DNA of 64,000 nucleotides, from positions 1,364,001 to 1,428,000 of the forward strand of contig NZ_AP018721.1 of NCBI RefSeq assembly GCF_003967275.1, written 5' to 3'. Below are positions 13,421 through 46,308 of the stretch, in pieces. The notes below the pieces were generated by a model, which worked only from the letters and a program-made list of their open reading frames with translations, searched no databases and had not been told where the DNA came from. How positions within the stretch are numbered: position 1 is the stretch's first letter; each line of letters starts with the position of its first letter. The position numbers and the translations under genes were made by a program. Origin of the DNA: Sulfuritortus calidifontis. Lineage in GTDB: Bacteria > Pseudomonadota > Gammaproteobacteria > Burkholderiales > Thiobacillaceae.

Positions 13421-14710
13421 TTAACGGCTTGTTGCCGCCTCGGCCAGAATCGCCCGCGCGCAGGCGACACCGCTGCGCACCGCGCCTTCCAGGGTGGCCG
13501 GGTAATCGCTGTGGACATGGTCGCCGGCAAGATAAAGGCCGGGCAGGGCGGTGACCATCTCAGGCCGCGGCAGGTCGGGGACGGCGGCGAAGGTGGCGCG
13601 CTTCTCGACGATGCTCAGGTGGTCGCGCAAGGGCGGCAGCGGCCCCAGGGCCTGGCGCATCTGCTCGAGCACGGCCGCAAGCAAGGCCGGTTTGGCCACT
13701 TCGAGATGCGGTCCCTCGGCGCTGATCACCACGCTGGCCAGGCCCGGCGCCAGATCGCGGCGCTCGAACAGCCACTGGCCAGGGCCGTGATCGAGGCCGA
13801 GCATGGGCAAGGGCAGATTCAGGTCTTGATCAAAGCGCAGCCACAGGGTCTCGATCGGCTGGTAGCCATAGGCCGCCACCATGCGCCGCACCGGCTCCAG
13901 CTCGGGCAGGCCGGCCAGCAATTCGGGCAATTGTGCAGGCGAGGTGGCACAGACGACATGACTGAAGGTCCGGTCGGCGCCGCTCAATCGGTAGCCGCCA
14001 CTTGTCCGCTCGATGCCTTCGATCCGGCGGCCAAGTCGAACCTCGCCGCCATGGCTTGCCAGATAGGCTGCCGCGGCATCGGGCAGCAGGCGGCCAAGGT
14101 CGGCGCGCGGCAGCAAAAGATCGCTCGCCGCCCGGTCGCCGCCCAGGCTGTCGCGCAGCACGTTGCAGAAGACCTGGGCCGAGGCCTGCTCCAGCGGGGT
14201 GTTGAGGGCAGCCAAGCAGATCGGCTCCCACAGGCGGCGGACGAGTGCCGGGGTCTGGTCATGGCGCTCGAGCAGGCCGGCGACGGTGGTGTCGGCCGGC
14301 AGGCGATAGCGCTGCCGCTTCAGGGCCCGGATGAAACGGGCGGCGGCCAGCTTGTCGCCCCAGGCGAGTCCCCGGGCACGGGCCAGGCCAAGGGCGACAT
14401 GCAAGGGGGCCGGCAGACGGGGCAGGGCGAGGCGCAACCGCGGCGGCTGGTTAAATTCGAGCGGTCGCCGTTCCAGCAGACCGTCGCTGCCGACCCGCGC
14501 CAGGAGGCGCAGGGTCTGCCGATAGGCACCGATCAGGATGTGCTGGCCGTTGTCGATGGCGATGTCGTTCCAGTCGACCCGGCGCGCCCGACCGCCCAGT
14601 TGCTTGGCCGCCTCGAACAGCGTGACGCGCCGGCCCCGCGCGGCCAGTTCCACGGCGCAGGCCAGGCCGGCCCAACCGCCGCCGATGACGGCAATCGCCT
14701 CGCCCCTCAC
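13421..14710 (-). CDS. hpnE: Hydroxysqualene dehydroxylase HpnE
   Basis: 429 residues, FAD-dependent amine-oxidase/phytoene-desaturase fold. The N-terminal dinucleotide motif VIGGGWAGLACAVELA and the C-terminal FAD motif (LPGLYLAGDHVHSDYPATLEGAVRSG) are visible. HpnE reduces hydroxysqualene to squalene, the last step of the HpnC-HpnD-HpnE route from farnesyl diphosphate, which feeds hopanoid synthesis. Its start overlaps the hpnD stop by 4 bp. Squalene-hopene cyclase is not in the window. Confidence 0.93.
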   Translation of the reverse strand: MRGEAIAVIGGGWAGLACAVELAARGRRVTLFEAAKQLGGRARRVDWNDIAIDNGQHILIGAYRQTLRLLARVGSDGLLERRPLEFNQPPRLRLALPRLPAPLHVALGLARARGLAWGDKLAAARFIRALKRQRYRLPADTTVAGLLERHDQTPALVRRLWEPICLAALNTPLEQASAQVFCNVLRDSLGGDRAASDLLLPRADLGRLLPDAAAAYLASHGGEVRLGRRIEGIERTSGGYRLSGADRTFSHVVCATSPAQLPELLAGLPELEPVRRMVAAYGYQPIETLWLRFDQDLNLPLPMLGLDHGPGQWLFERRDLAPGLASVVISAEGPHLEVAKPALLAAVLEQMRQALGPLPPLRDHLSIVEKRATFAAVPDLPRPEMVTALPGLYLAGDHVHSDYPATLEGAVRSGVACARAILAEAATSR

Positions 14711-15540
14711 GCAAACACCCAGGTGCGCCAGGCGATCCAGAGCTTGCGCAGGGGCGTCAGCGCGACCCGGCCGCGCAGCACCGGAAAGCCCGCGCGCCGG
14801 ATCTCGTCGAGCAGGGTGCGGTAGATCGCGGCCATGATCAGGCCCGGGCGCTGGGCCTTGCGGTCGGCCGCGGGCAGGCTGGCCAGGGCCTGGCGATAGA
14901 AACCCTCGGCACGCTGGTATTGAAATTCCATGAGCTGCCGAAAGGCTTCGGTCTCCCGGCCCTGCAGGATGTTGGCCTCGGTCACGCCGAAACGGGCCAG
15001 TTCATCCTGCGGCAGATAGATCCGGCCGCGCCGGGCATCCTCGCCGACGTCGCGGATGATGTTGGTGAGCTGGAAGGCCAGGCCGAGCAGGGCGGCATAT
15101 TTTTGGGTGGCGCGCTCCTGATAACCGAAGATCTGGGCCGCCACCTCGCCGACCACGCCGGCCACCCGGTGGCAATACAGGCGCAGTTCGCGGAAATCCG
15201 GATAGCGATGCTGGTGGATGTCCATCTCCATGCCATCGAGGATTTCGAGCAGGGCTTCCTTGGGCAGATCGAAGGCGGCCACCGCCGATCGCAGGGCCTG
15301 GGTCACCGGGTGGCCGGGCTGGCCGGCATACAGCCGCTCGACCTCGGCCCGCCACCAGTCGAGCTTGGCCTGAGCCACCGCCGGCTCCCGGCATTCGTCG
15401 GCCACGTCGTCGACCTCGCGGCAAAAGGCGTAGAAGGCCGTGATCGCCCGCCGCCGTTCGAGTGGCAGGAAACGGAAGCTGTAATAGAAACTGGAGCCGC
15501 TGGCGGCGGCCTTGTCCTGGCAATATTGATGAACGTCCAT
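14707..15540 (-). CDS. hpnD: Presqualene diphosphate synthase HpnD
   Basis: 277 residues of the trans-isoprenyl diphosphate synthase head-to-head family. Two aspartate-rich Mg-binding motifs are visible: CREVDDVADE near residue 41 and NIIRDVGEDARRGRIYLP near residue 160. By family, HpnD condenses two farnesyl diphosphates to presqualene diphosphate. It sits between hpnC and hpnE (15-bp gap upstream, 4-bp overlap downstream), the standard operon order. Confidence 0.93.
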   Translation of the reverse strand: MDVHQYCQDKAAASGSSFYYSFRFLPLERRRAITAFYAFCREVDDVADECREPAVAQAKLDWWRAEVERLYAGQPGHPVTQALRSAVAAFDLPKEALLEILDGMEMDIHQHRYPDFRELRLYCHRVAGVVGEVAAQIFGYQERATQKYAALLGLAFQLTNIIRDVGEDARRGRIYLPQDELARFGVTEANILQGRETEAFRQLMEFQYQRAEGFYRQALASLPAADRKAQRPGLIMAAIYRTLLDEIRRAGFPVLRGRVALTPLRKLWIAWRTWVFA

Positions 15541-15555
15541 CCGTATCTCTTTGTT

Positions 15556-16401
15556 TTATTTTTTCCTCAAGGCACGCCAGAGCATGTAGAGCCAGTCGCC
15601 CAGGCCCAGCTTCGGCCGCTGGCTGAACATGTCGCCGTGGCTGCGATGCAGTTTATACAGGATGCGCTCGCCGCCGAGGATGATCAGCCGCATCTCGAAG
15701 CCGATGCGGCCCTTGAGCACCCGGCCGAGCGGGGCGCCGGCGGCCAGCAGCTTGCGCGCGCGCTCGATCTGCTCGCGCATGAATATTTGCCATAGACCGT
15801 CGCTGCGGCCCTCGGCGATCTGACGCTCGCTGATGCCGTAGCGGGCCATCTCGTCCTGCGGAAAATAGATGCGGTTCTTTTGCCAATCGACGGCAACATC
15901 CTGCAGGAAGTTGATGATTTGCAAGGCCGAGCAGATGCCGTCGGAATAGGCCTGGTTGCGCGGGGCGTCGGCGCCGTAGAGCTTGAGCAGCAATCGGCCG
16001 ATGGGATTGGCCGACTTGCGGCAATAGGCCATGACCTCGCCGAAATCGGCATAGCGGGTCTTGCTGCAATCCTGGGCGAAGGCGTCGAGCAGGTCGTGGA
16101 ACAACTGGAAGGGCAGATCGTGCCGGCGGATGGCCTCGCCCAGCTCGACGAAGATCGGATGCGTGACGGCTTCGCCGCGTTCCAGCGCCCGCAGTTGTTC
16201 GCGGAAGGCCTCGAGTTCGGCCAGACGCGCCTCGGCTGGCGCATCGCCCTCGTCGGCGATGTCGTCGGCGGCGCGGGCGAAGCGGTAGATGGCTTGGATC
16301 GGCCGGCGCAGTCGGCGGGGCAGGAAGACCGAGGCCACCGGAAAGTTTTCATAGTGGCCGACGTTGACCAGGGTGGGGCGGGACGACTGGGCGTCAGTCA
16401 T
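15556..16401 (-). CDS. hpnC: Hydroxysqualene synthase HpnC
   Basis: 281 residues, same fold as HpnD, with aspartate motifs RAADDIADEGDAP and NFLQDVAVDWQKNRIYFP. HpnC converts presqualene diphosphate to hydroxysqualene. The N-terminal VGHYENFPVASVFLP block separates HpnC from HpnD. It is the first gene of the hpnCDE operon and is divergent from tRNA-Leu, with 77 bp between them. Confidence 0.93.
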   Translation of the reverse strand: MTDAQSSRPTLVNVGHYENFPVASVFLPRRLRRPIQAIYRFARAADDIADEGDAPAEARLAELEAFREQLRALERGEAVTHPIFVELGEAIRRHDLPFQLFHDLLDAFAQDCSKTRYADFGEVMAYCRKSANPIGRLLLKLYGADAPRNQAYSDGICSALQIINFLQDVAVDWQKNRIYFPQDEMARYGISERQIAEGRSDGLWQIFMREQIERARKLLAAGAPLGRVLKGRIGFEMRLIILGGERILYKLHRSHGDMFSQRPKLGLGDWLYMLWRALRKK

Positions 16402-16478: not shown

Positions 16479-16563
16479 GCGGAAGTGGCGGAATTGGTAG
16501 ACGCACTGGATTTAGGTTCCAGCGCCGCAAGGTGTGCAGGTTCGAGTCCTGTCTTCCGCACCA
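16479..16563 (+). tRNA. tRNA-Leu (anticodon UAG)
   Basis: 85 nt including an encoded CCA. The acceptor stem GCGGAAG pairs with CTTCCGC. The anticodon stem CTGGA/TCCAG encloses loop TTTAGGT with anticodon TAG at 16513-16515. A class II variable arm (CGCCGCAAGGTGT) and T-loop GGTTCGAGTCC are present. Confidence 0.98.
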
Positions 16564-16580
16564 TGGATAAATATAAAGGC

Positions 16581-16928
16581 ATGTCCGACAAGCTGATCAA
16601 ACAGAAGGCCGCGCTTACCCTGTCGGCCGCCAAACAGGTGTTGGCGGCGGCCGAGGCCGAAGCCATGAAGCAGCGTTGGCCGGTGGTGATCGCCGTGGTC
16701 GACGACGGCGGCCATCTGCTCTGCCTGTCGCGCCTGGACGGTGCCCAGCACGGCAGCGTCGACATCGCCCTGGCCAAGGCCGAGGCGGCCGTGGCCTTCA
16801 AGCGGCCGACCCTGGCCTGGTCCGACGCCCTCACCGGCGGCCGTCTGGGCGTGCTCGGCCTGCCCGGCGTGCTGCCGGCCGAGGGCGGACTGGTCGCCGC
16901 CGCCGGCGCCGCCGCGCTGCTGGACTAA
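16581..16928 (+). CDS. HbpS/GlcG-like protein, internally shortened
   Basis: 115 residues from the ATG at 16581; an ATG at 16563 overlapping the last base of the tRNA is an alternative. The N-terminal two thirds match the GlcG/HbpS (DUF336) family: VVIAVVDDGGHLLCLSRLDGA, then ALAKAEAAVAFKRPT and LPGVLPAEGG. The family normally continues with a strand around PIVVDG...GAIGVSG before a C-terminal helix ending in VAAAGAAAL. Here GG joins directly to LVAAAGAAALLD, so about 25 residues seem to be deleted in frame. HbpS proteins bind heme or act as extracellular sensors in some bacteria; the role here is unknown. The TAA stop is also the target duplication of the mobile element that follows. Confidence 0.7.
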   Translation: MSDKLIKQKAALTLSAAKQVLAAAEAEAMKQRWPVVIAVVDDGGHLLCLSRLDGAQHGSVDIALAKAEAAVAFKRPTLAWSDALTGGRLGVLGLPGVLPAEGGLVAAAGAAALLD

Positions 16929-17213
16929 GAGCCTATTTCAGTAGGAAATATACCCCGTATTGAGACCAGGATCGGATGGATGCAAGGCGCGTCGCGCAGT
17001 CGATGGTCGTTCCATCGACAAGCGGCGCAACGCCGCAGACGCCGATCCTGGCCTCAACCCGAAGGGCCGGCCGTCTGCGGGCGTTTATGCCCTTCAGGGT
17101 GCATTGCCGCGTTGCGGGTGGCTCGTGGAGAATGACTACACTTCGCCCCCCGCGCCTTGCACTGCATCCCGCAGGCAACCGGCACGGGATATGTTTCCTA
17201 CTGAAATAGGCTC
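16929..17213. mobile_element. 285-bp MITE-like element with GAGCCT inverted ends and TAA target duplication
   Basis: The left end GAGCCTATTTCAGTAGG is perfectly inverted at the right end (17194-17213). TAA flanks both sides (16926-16928 and 17214-17216), the left copy being the stop codon of the upstream gene. No transposase is encoded. Inside is a second palindrome: TGAGACCAGGATCGG (16961-16975) pairs with 17042-17056 at 14 of 15 positions and encloses a 66-base core (16976-17041) also found at 44853-44930. Ends and target resemble IS5-family (TNA-duplicating) elements, so trans-mobilisation by such an IS is inferred. Confidence 0.85.
16976..17041 (+). repeat. 66-base structured core, copy 1
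   Basis: Two hairpins are predicted: GTCGATGG-TCGTT-CCATCGAC and GCGGCG-CAA-CGCCGC. Copy 2 (reverse strand of 44853-44930) matches 56 of 66 positions, and the differences within the stems are compensatory. Confidence 0.8.
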
Positions 17214-17428
17214 TAAAGCCAATCCCCACCGCCTGCGGGGCCAATCCGGGCCGGCTTTCGTGGTATTCTCCCGGTTGTTTGGGAAGGTCCGGAACCGCCG
17301 CTTCAACCCCGCTGACAGCACCCCGGAGGGTCCGGATTTCCTGATATTTATCAGCCTATTACCGCGACAACCGTCATTCCGCCGGGGCGCGGCGATTGGC
17401 GCAAGCCTTAGCTCGACAAGGAAACATG

Positions 17429-44686: not shown

Positions 44687-44705
44687 ATGACCATGCACAA
44701 GCTAA
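44687..44705 (+). pseudogene. Remnant of the original dxr start (first codons before the insertion)
   Basis: ATG ACC ATG CAC AAG CTA lies directly left of the mobile element. Deleting the element and one TAA copy joins this in frame to the dxr body as M-T-M-H-K-L-I-I-L-G, a normal Dxr N-terminus. The remnant now reads into the element instead. Confidence 0.85.
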
Positions 44706-44741
44706 GAGCCTGTCTCATAAAATCCTGTGGGCGCGACGGCG

Positions 44742-44828
44742 GCGATTTTGACGCAGGCCGCGAAGCGCAACGCGCGATTTGCTCATTCCAAACAAGCGGT
44801 GCGCGACAAAGGCCTGTGGCAAAATCGC
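44742..44828. repeat. Nested inverted-repeat unit A'
   Basis: GCGATTTTGACGCAGGCC (44742-44759) is inverted at 44811-44828 with 16 of 18 matches. The interior holds a CGCAACGCG motif like the other units. No clear target duplication was found. Confidence 0.7.
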
Positions 44829-44852
44829 CCCGTCCCGAAGGGTTGCCGCTAG

Positions 44853-44930
44853 AAACGGCGTCTGCCGCGTTGCGGCGCTTGGCAATGGAACGACCATTGC
44901 CCACGCACCGCGCCTTGCATCCATCCGTTT
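44853..44930 (-). repeat. Nested 78-bp unit B, holding core copy 2
   Basis: Flanked by CTAG (44849-44852 and 44931-44934). On the minus strand it contains the 66-base core shared with 16976-17041, with hairpins GGCAATGG-TCGTT-CCATTGCC and GCGCCG-CAA-CGCGGC. Confidence 0.8.
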
Positions 44931-44934
44931 CTAG

Positions 44935-45107
44935 CAGGCCGTTGAAAAACTACTGCGGTGGGCCATCTGCGGCGTTGCGCGGTGCTCGCTCCCTCGCCTA
45001 TCTGTTTGATATGTGGCCACGCCGAAACTCACTTCGTTCGTTTTCTCGGTCGCTGCGCCCCAATCGCCTTGCATCTGGCCATCCTCGCTACGTTTTTCAA
45101 CGGCCTG
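44935..45107. repeat. Nested 173-bp unit C
   Basis: CAGGCCGTTGAAAAAC is perfectly inverted at the other end (16 bp), and CTAG flanks both sides (44931-44934, 45108-45111). On the minus strand it carries GATGCAAGGCG near one end and GCGCAACGCCGCAGA near the other, the same end motifs as the 66-base core, around a different and longer interior. Confidence 0.8.
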
Positions 45108-45135
45108 CTAGCGGCAACGCGCTCCATAGGATTTT

Positions 45136-46308
45136 ATGAGACAGGCTCTAATCATCCTCGGTGCCACCGGCACCATCGGCGTCAACACCCTGGACGTGGT
45201 GGCGCGCCATCCCGAGCGCTTCCGCGTCGTCGCCCTGACCGGCTTCAACCAGATCGACAAACTGGCCGAGCAATGCCGCCGGTTCCAGCCGCGCTATGCC
45301 GTGGTACCGGATGCCCAGCGGGCACAAGCCCTGCAACAACTGTTGAGCGGCGGCCAGACCGAGGTGCTCCATGGCGAAGCCGCACTGGAACAGGTGGTCG
45401 CCCTGCCCGAGGTCGACAGCGTCATGGCGGCCATCGTCGGCGCCGCCGGCCTGAGACCCGCCTTGGCCGCAGCCCGCGCCGGCAAGCGCATCCTGCTGGC
45501 GAACAAGGAGACCCTGGTCATGGCCGGCCGCTTCTTCATGCAGGCCGTGCGCGAAGGCGGCGCCATCCTGCTGCCGATCGACAGCGAGCACAATGCGGTG
45601 TTCCAGTCCCTGCCGGCCAATTACGACGGCGACTTGGCCAGACATGGCGTGCGCCGAATCCTGCTCACCGCCTCGGGCGGCCCCTTCCGCACCCGCCCGG
45701 TCGAGACCCTCGCCGCTGTCACTCCGGAAGAGGCCGTCGCCCACCCGAACTGGGTGATGGGCAAGAAGATCTCGGTCGACTCGGCCACCATGATGAACAA
45801 GGGCCTGGAAGTGATCGAGGCGCACTGGCTGTTCAACGCCAGGCCGGAGCAGATCGAAGTGGTGATTCATCCGCAGAGCATTGTCCACTCCATGGTCGAG
45901 TACCTCGACGGCTCGGTGCTGGCCCAGCTGTCGCACCCCGACATGCGCACGCCGATCGCCCATGCCCTGGCCTATCCCGAGCGGATCGAGGCCGGCGTCC
46001 CCTGGCTGGATCTCGCCAAGACCGGCAGCCTGACCTTCGAGAGCCCCGACACCCGCCGCTTTCCCTGTCTGAAACTGGCCTTCGACGCCCTGCAGGCGGA
46101 CACCACGGCGCCGACCGTGCTCAACGCCGCCAACGAGGAGGCCGTGGCCGCCTTCCTCGACCGGCGCATTCCCTACCTTGCCATTCCCGCGACCCTGGAT
46201 CACGCCCTACAGCGATTGGCCGGCGCCCGCGCCGATTCGCTCGACGATCTGGTCGCCATCGACCAGGAAGCACGCGCCATCGCCCGGGATTTCATTGCCA
46301 AGCAATGA
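45136..46308 (+). CDS. dxr: 1-deoxy-D-xylulose-5-phosphate reductoisomerase
   Basis: 390 residues. Second step of the MEP isoprenoid pathway (NADPH-dependent, Mg/Mn). NADPH motif [14 protein letters not shown], active-site [10 protein letters not shown]-like [10 protein letters not shown], and [14 protein letters not shown] are present. The first four codons and start (MRQA) come from the terminal repeat of the mobile element. AGGA lies 4 nt upstream, also inside the repeat. The gene therefore uses a replaced start and leader. Its stop overlaps rseP (ATGA). Confidence 0.96.

Follow-up and report, generated by a model that had tools for sequence, protein, structure and literature searches.

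To our knowledge, the usual view of MITEs holds that only the ends matter for their movement. Elements of the IS5 family are characterized by TNA or YTAR duplications, and their transposition as it is known uses duplex DNA. The integron attC site functions in folded, single-stranded form; its unpaired bases are conserved, its stems are free, and it bears the boxes RYYYAAC/GTTRRRY. In the portions of the literature drawn upon here, MITE families are described for particular species or groups. The Beta-proteobacterial repeat element (BRE, Hot et al. 2011) is presented as a GC-rich, mostly intergenic sequence of 75-91 bp, which occurs in Polaromonas sp. JS666 (29 copies), Acidovorax and Delftia, forms tandem arrays in Bordetella and in its B. 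pertussis copy overlaps a small RNA of ~80 nt (PMC3110155). RNase III cutting of the transcripts of Neisseria Correia MITEs, along with MITE-derived small RNAs, is covered by a review (PMC10969869).

Our analysis of the window, i.e., the whole stretch of 64,000 nucleotides under study, revealed two MITE-like elements and a third MITE nested in the second of them (Table 1), which share a conserved core. This core is not a stand-alone unit; it proved to be the interior of IS5-type MITEs.

MITE-like elements of the window and their gene context

Table 1. Elements, cores and modules located in the window.
Feature	Position	Strand	Description
Element 1, MITE-like, 285 bp	16929..17213	+	ends GAGCCTATTTCAGTAGGAAA...; TAA duplication 16926-16928 and 17214-17216
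Core A of element 1	16979..17039	+	GATGCAAGGCG...GCAACGCCGCAGA; 50 nt from element end
Module B of element 1, inverted relative to A	17083..17183	-	R1 match of 40.4 bits, E 3.4e-12; exact pattern not matched
Element 2, MITE-like	44706..45148	-	ends GAGCCTGTCTCATAAAATCC; TTA duplication 44703-44705 and 45149-45151
Core A of element 2	44861..44921	-	pattern match; R1 84.9 bits
Third MITE, nested in element 2	44935..45107	-	ends CAGGCCGTTGAAAAAC; CTAG duplication 44931-44934 and 45108-45111

R1, a covariance model built from 65 pattern-selected copies, scored core 1 (L064), which is part of its training alignment, at 91.1 bits (16959-17059, E 1e-30), and core 2, which is not part of it, at an E-value of 3e-28. 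The best R1 match outside the elements reached 15.3 bits. Once the nested insertion and one copy of CTAG are removed, element 2 measures 266 bp, and no second module was detected in it by R1. The nested MITE (R1 match 44946-45094, 30.8 bits) shares the conserved core strands, which here enclose a longer apical region, and has arms of 32 and 31 nt.

The TAA duplicated by element 1 is, at 16926-16928, the stop codon of an HbpS-like ORF (16485-16928). A tRNA gene at 16479-16560 overlaps the start of the longest version of this ORF, thus its true start probably lies further in. At 13421-16401, two adjacent squalene/phytoene synthase-like genes are accompanied by an amine-oxidase-like gene, an arrangement known from hopanoid clusters. 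The insertion site of element 2 falls within the opening codons of a dxr-like gene (PF02670; 45136-46308; insertion region 44687-45151). The start codon of this gene in its present form would be an ATG that belongs to the MITE end, with AGGATTTT before it; to judge from this arrangement, element 2 may supply a new start codon to the gene.

Ends, mobility and distribution of the elements

Of 99 elements, counted without de-duplication, 48 have an exact YTAR/TNA duplication directly beside their matched ends, as compared with a control mean of 3.6 of 99 and a control range of 1-7. The 99 elements are those in the size range among 112 sites with context, 110 of which have an outer repeat. The tally covers the motifs sought, which were represented by CTAG (16), TTA (16), TAA (9), TGA (2), TCA (2), TTAA (2) and CTAA (1). 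The ends themselves vary, with 26 distinct first 10-mers among 48 elements, and a CCTGT-like stretch is common to many of them.

The geometry of the elements was assessed at the 50 distinct sites with an exact duplication, of 113 sites. The distance from the end to the core is 49-50 nt in 44 of these 50 elements, while the far side measures 47-50 nt in 15 elements that possess one module and 155-156 nt in 23 elements with two inverted modules; the total length amounts to 158-162 or 262-269 bp in 40 of the 50. Exceptions to the distance rule are the nested MITE of the window (arms of 32/31 nt) and an Omnitrophota pair (~22 nt). Such a near-fixed distance to the ends would agree with a core that is recognized as duplex DNA, either by a nucleoid protein or, as a subterminal enhancer, by the transposase, its pairing being a by-product. 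An IS locus that has a matching end and lacks the core fits with this explanation as well, since the enhancer could be specific to MITEs. Nevertheless, we consider a duplex site very unlikely: the stem letters are free while the pairing is kept, and duplex recognition predicts no asymmetry of G.T over A.C mismatches of the kind reported below.

The IS locus in question is that of Comamonas composti (L234), an IS of ~850 bp with a PF01609 transposase, which carries AGAACGTGTTTACGATCT at one end, as do the MITEs L084 and L150 of the same assembly; no R1 module was found in it. A search of the genome of Sulfuritortus calidifontis itself for two transposase families returned no match to PF01609 or PF13586, and the end pattern of element 1, sought in six genomes of the genus, gave no clear inward pair of IS size. 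Search for an autonomous IS carrying the core was likewise without success, as the three R1 matches in 30 PF01609 loci were in no case shown to lie within a matched IS.

Target choice with respect to host genes was considered in several ways. Open frames that end at the duplicated triplet are followed by the module in sense in 14 cases and in antisense in 13 (4 and 4 in single-module elements), and the neighbouring genes are distributed over the four possible arrangements as 19/16/15/13, i.e., without bias, as counted with a crude and unreliable ORF caller that drew an ORF across 44 of 63 elements. A preference for stop codons looked strong in the first counts (26/42 versus 264/1535 control sites, and 27/52 versus 185/1419, where the 27 are elements of related loci that directly follow an open frame of 60 codons or more). 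The controls of these counts had shorter upstream sequence and no motif matching. With motif-matched controls of equal length, 18 of 43 elements were found at such a position at 60 codons versus 14.7 expected (P 0.11; 0.09-0.12 over three settings), and 17 of 43 versus about 9.8 at 100 codons (P about 0.001). This weak preference is threshold-dependent and is not used here as support.

The pattern GATGCAAGGCGN{20,50}GCAACGCNGCAGA, which selects by fixed core letters, was scanned over the GTDB species genomes and revealed at least 119 loci. The matches are 59-63 nt long in 122 of 124 cases, although gaps of 20-50 were permitted. The record labels among the matches listed comprise Comamonas, Acidovorax, Polaromonas, Gallionellaceae, Guyparkeria, Streptomyces, Faecalibacterium, Elusimicrobia, Omnitrophota, Acidobacteria, Planctomycetota and Bacteroidales, some labels of metagenome bins being possibly wrong. 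Three loci labelled as a Desulfovibrionaceae bin (L083, L142 and L189) have arms and ends that resemble Comamonadaceae copies; their contigs may be mis-binned. In the genome of S. calidifontis (2.72 Mb), the exact pattern matches 14 times, compared with none for a reversed control pattern, and R1 finds 43 matches at E ≤0.001. Copies recognized by R1 are present in 25 of 41 genomes (this one and 40 relatives) and, at E ≤1e-5, in 25 members of a sample of 120 genomes from the phylum (the genome itself counted). They number from 2 to at least 150 per genome in 25 genomes picked as carriers; the Gallionellaceae MAG STA_24 (L106) belongs to both the relatives and the carriers, its matches having identical coordinates in both sets. 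A nature as cargo of plasmids or phages was considered and rejected: element 1 had no plasmid match, three other modules occurred in 2, 4 and 1 plasmid records, and one module had no phage match.

Fold, covariation and strand bias of the core

The comparison of the cores at 16976-17041 (+) and 44859-44924 (-) confirmed the identity at 56 of 66 positions that had been claimed for them, together with the unchanged loops TCGTT and CAA and with outer arms which are unlike in sequence between the copies and yet inverted about the core in each. Out of three compensatory pairs proposed previously, two were recovered in the apical stem (17000/17018, TA to GC; 17002/17016, GC to AT). The third, GCGGCG/CGCCGC versus GCGCCG/CGCGGC, had to be abandoned, as the GCGCCG-CAA-CGCGGC hairpin of copy 2 puts GG and CC opposite each other. 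The local second stem GCGGCG-CAA-CGCCGC was accordingly rejected, at least five of its six pairs being Watson-Crick in just 12 of 66 distinct copies. A long-range helix formed by 16990-16995 and 17022-17027 attains at least five of six Watson-Crick pairs in 45 of the 66. Since the 5' 'linker' (16990-16995) pairs with 17022-17027, two of the four differences formerly assigned to a linker, those at 16992 and 16993, are stem changes (16992/17025, TG to GC; 16993/17024, CG to TG), while 16997 and 16998 do lie outside the helix. Position 17034 is the variable N of GCAACGCNGC, occupied by C in 48, A in 9, G in 7 and T in 2 of the 66 distinct copies.

From the outer arms inward, the fold consists of variable paired arms, a tandem GA facing GA, TGC/GCA, and AAG facing one variable base, followed by GCG/CGC, a CAA bulge, the variable helix 2 and a variable apical stem-loop. 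In this fold, 82.2% of the cells pair; the corresponding value is 61.3% for shuffles and does not exceed 41.1% for slid versions. The covariation score of 0.496 (0.163 in shuffles) was reached by none of 500 shuffles. Two of the five shuffle measures were not clearly above chance: for pairs changed on either side at once, an equally high value was obtained in 287 of 500 shuffles, and for the number of further pair types in 27 of 500. When helix 2 was anchored without an alignment, its positions 2-5 showed Watson-Crick fractions of 0.82, 0.64, 0.71 and 0.58, with shuffled means of 0.30, 0.29, 0.25 and 0.27. Under a tree-aware null, 10 of 21 variable pairs were significant, 7 in the arms and 3 in helix 2; five slid pairings gave 0, 0, 2, 0 and 0 significant pairs of 28. 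The excess of compensatory changes over many copies that the sequence-only reading had called for is thus present for the structure as a whole, while none of the eight apical pairs is individually significant, perhaps owing to a register shift of the alignment in this region.

The invariance of the core letters in alignment A1 is a consequence of the search, in which these letters were fixed. The CxAGGCG and GCAACG strands are kept in nearly all of 29 R1 matches outside the pattern, most of which are second modules, and these were still picked by R1, whose training favours the same letters. Conservation of the core could be merely apparent: an old, hairpin-rich MITE lineage may have spread horizontally and gained new terminal repeats, and its core would seem conserved since copies that lose pairing drop out of recognition as members. 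The ascertainment of the loci by fixed core letters, and of the 29 other matches by a model trained on them, is compatible with descent of this kind, and pairing together with descent would suffice for the conservation of length, because an indel in one arm breaks the pairing. Still, the off-pattern second modules keep both core strands, the covariation exceeds the tree-aware null, the core is kept while the ends differ, and the mismatch bias described in the following is strand-specific and follows the orientation of the module. Hence, descent alone is disfavoured and regarded as improbable.

This bias concerns isolated mismatches, scored in such a way that G.T and A.C are treated alike. On the sense strand of the module, the G.T:A.C ratio was 88:36 in the 66 distinct copies, 51:23 in 39 and 28:7 in 19 clusters. 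For the split by region, 94 elements with ends placeable in preset distance windows were used, which after clustering left 16 single and 36 double ones. In two-module elements, module A showed 23:10 in the arms and 19:3 in the inner part, and module B, read on its own opposite strand, 18:5; the bias was weak at the ends of these elements (12:5, or 5:4 after stricter clustering). Single-module elements displayed 15:2 at the ends and 15:3 in the arms, and a reversed ratio of 6:9 in the inner stem. The bias tracks the orientation of the module and not the strand of the genome, which argues for selection on the folded sense strand. Taken together, these observations suggest that selection acts on a folded single strand, be it ssDNA or RNA, either of which would account for them. 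The conserved fold, exchangeable arms and single-strand action proposed earlier for the core are consequently upheld by the covariation across the structure, by the tree-aware null and by the excess of G.T over A.C; the second stem had been misdrawn.

If RNA is the form selected, read-through transcripts of the MITEs would fold, and their internal loops would offer binding or cleavage sites to a widespread RNA-binding protein or nuclease, resulting in less damage to host genes or in the production of a small RNA. The excess of G.T (G.U in RNA) over A.C on the sense strand, including the 15:2 ratio at single-module ends, agrees with this possibility, as does the RNA fold prediction for element 1, which is strong (z -12.1), although the opposite strand of this palindromic element also reaches -10.4; the reported RNase III cutting of Correia transcripts would be a precedent (PMC10969869). 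On the other hand, modules show no preferred orientation at the ends of open frames, and a fixed distance to transposon ends is not expected of an RNA function. Nor did the elements searched (those of the window and 13 other loci) yield an above-threshold score for any known Rfam family; a permissive search of 16900-17250 returned two weak matches (E 0.24 and 0.79) far under their thresholds. An RNA function is in our opinion conceivable, albeit doubtful. We favour ssDNA over RNA by a narrow margin, since the distance rule connects the core with the transposon ends and the small samples at hand showed no host-gene bias.

As a tentative explanation, in which our confidence stays somewhat below even, we propose that the core represents the folded interior of short non-coding IS5-type MITEs, which may be used as a single strand and may aid their propagation via a host factor. 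Transposases that recognize the element ends would mobilise the MITEs in trans in most genomes. The strand would be exposed, most likely as ssDNA at replication and alternatively as a transcript, and its folding would join the two terminal repeats in a single duplex end. The conserved AAG, CAA and tandem-GA loops, situated ~50 nt further in, might serve as the docking site for a widespread host factor, which once docked would help the element to propagate. Two inverted modules would provide one sense module per strand, so that the orientation of the element would not matter. The failure to find a partner transposase of the two families in the genome itself or a clear IS-sized pair of element-1 ends in the six genomes of the genus, the reversed bias in the inner stem, the weak one at the ends of two-module elements and the exceptions to the distance rule speak against this propagation model. 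The same holds for the use of duplex DNA in known IS5-family transposition, for the two shuffle measures near chance, and for the possibility that descent explains the fixed length. Whatever the purpose, the conserved core suggests a dependence of these gene-less elements on a folded single strand.

Comparison with known systems

It is possible, though in our estimate doubtful, that the elements form a MITE superfamily of several phyla, built on one folded single strand located ~50 nt from the ends and kept through changes of the transposase partner. Such a superfamily would suggest either that a DDE-type element is used in the form of a folded single strand or that mobile elements carry a structured RNA not recognised so far. 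Contrary to the view that the ends alone matter, the interior fold is here kept while the ends differ, in records with labels of several phyla, and is accompanied by a strand-specific mismatch signature. If the superfamily reading is true, it offers a testable route to the question of why elements persist where no partner transposase is found, and a large class of intergenic repeats so far without annotation could be labelled with the covariance model. Literature searches on MITEs and repeats gave no description of such a core among the matches listed, and the matches listed for the core letters as a query were unrelated by title.

The integron attC site is comparable in its single-stranded fold, its conserved unpaired bases and its free stems; in contrast to it, alignment A1 shows on inspection no conserved RYYYAAC/GTTRRRY boxes, and the core is located in MITEs, not in cassettes. 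REP/BIME sequences with their RAYT transposases are also dispersed hairpins, often in inverted pairs. Unlike these, the present elements have no conserved GTAG or CGTC tag upon inspection of alignment A1, and their ends and duplications are of the DDE-transposon type. The ERIC/IRU repeats of enterobacteria resemble the core: they are inverted-repeat hairpins of ~127 bp in which AAGGCG occupies one side of the stem and ACGCAGC the other. R1 did not match the two E. coli ERIC copies used for comparison (L295 and L296), and their best local alignments were not clearly significant, with 9 and 23 of 300 shuffles as good. One ERIC copy can be aligned over almost its whole length with an Elusimicrobia module, the statistics being weak. 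On the basis of these two copies, kinship with ERIC is suggestive by eye and weak by test.

BRE is by its description the closest published repeat, and the core may overlap or be identical with it. As described (PMC3110155), BRE is similar in size, GC-richness, intergenic sites and hosts, and R1 finds 20 modules in the JS666 genome; the tandem arrays in Bordetella are a feature of BRE that sets it apart. A tandem-core pattern was present in none of 392 genomes of the family of a Herbaspirillum, among which Bordetella is perhaps not included.

The elements are under ~500 bp long and show terminal inverted repeats, target duplications and many dispersed copies, as MITEs do. TNA/YTAR duplications, IS5-type ends and the PF01609 transposase of the C. 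composti IS place them with the IS5 family, and we file them as a widespread new variant of the IS5-type MITE. With the known IS5-family MITEs they have in common their short length, terminal inverted repeats, TNA/YTAR duplications and dispersal. A match of their ends to those of an autonomous IS was seen at one end in Comamonas composti; no partner was found in the genome of S. calidifontis for the two families sought, nor by end pattern in the genus. They differ from these MITEs in possessing one covarying core at a near-fixed distance from ends that differ among copies, in records labelled as several phyla.
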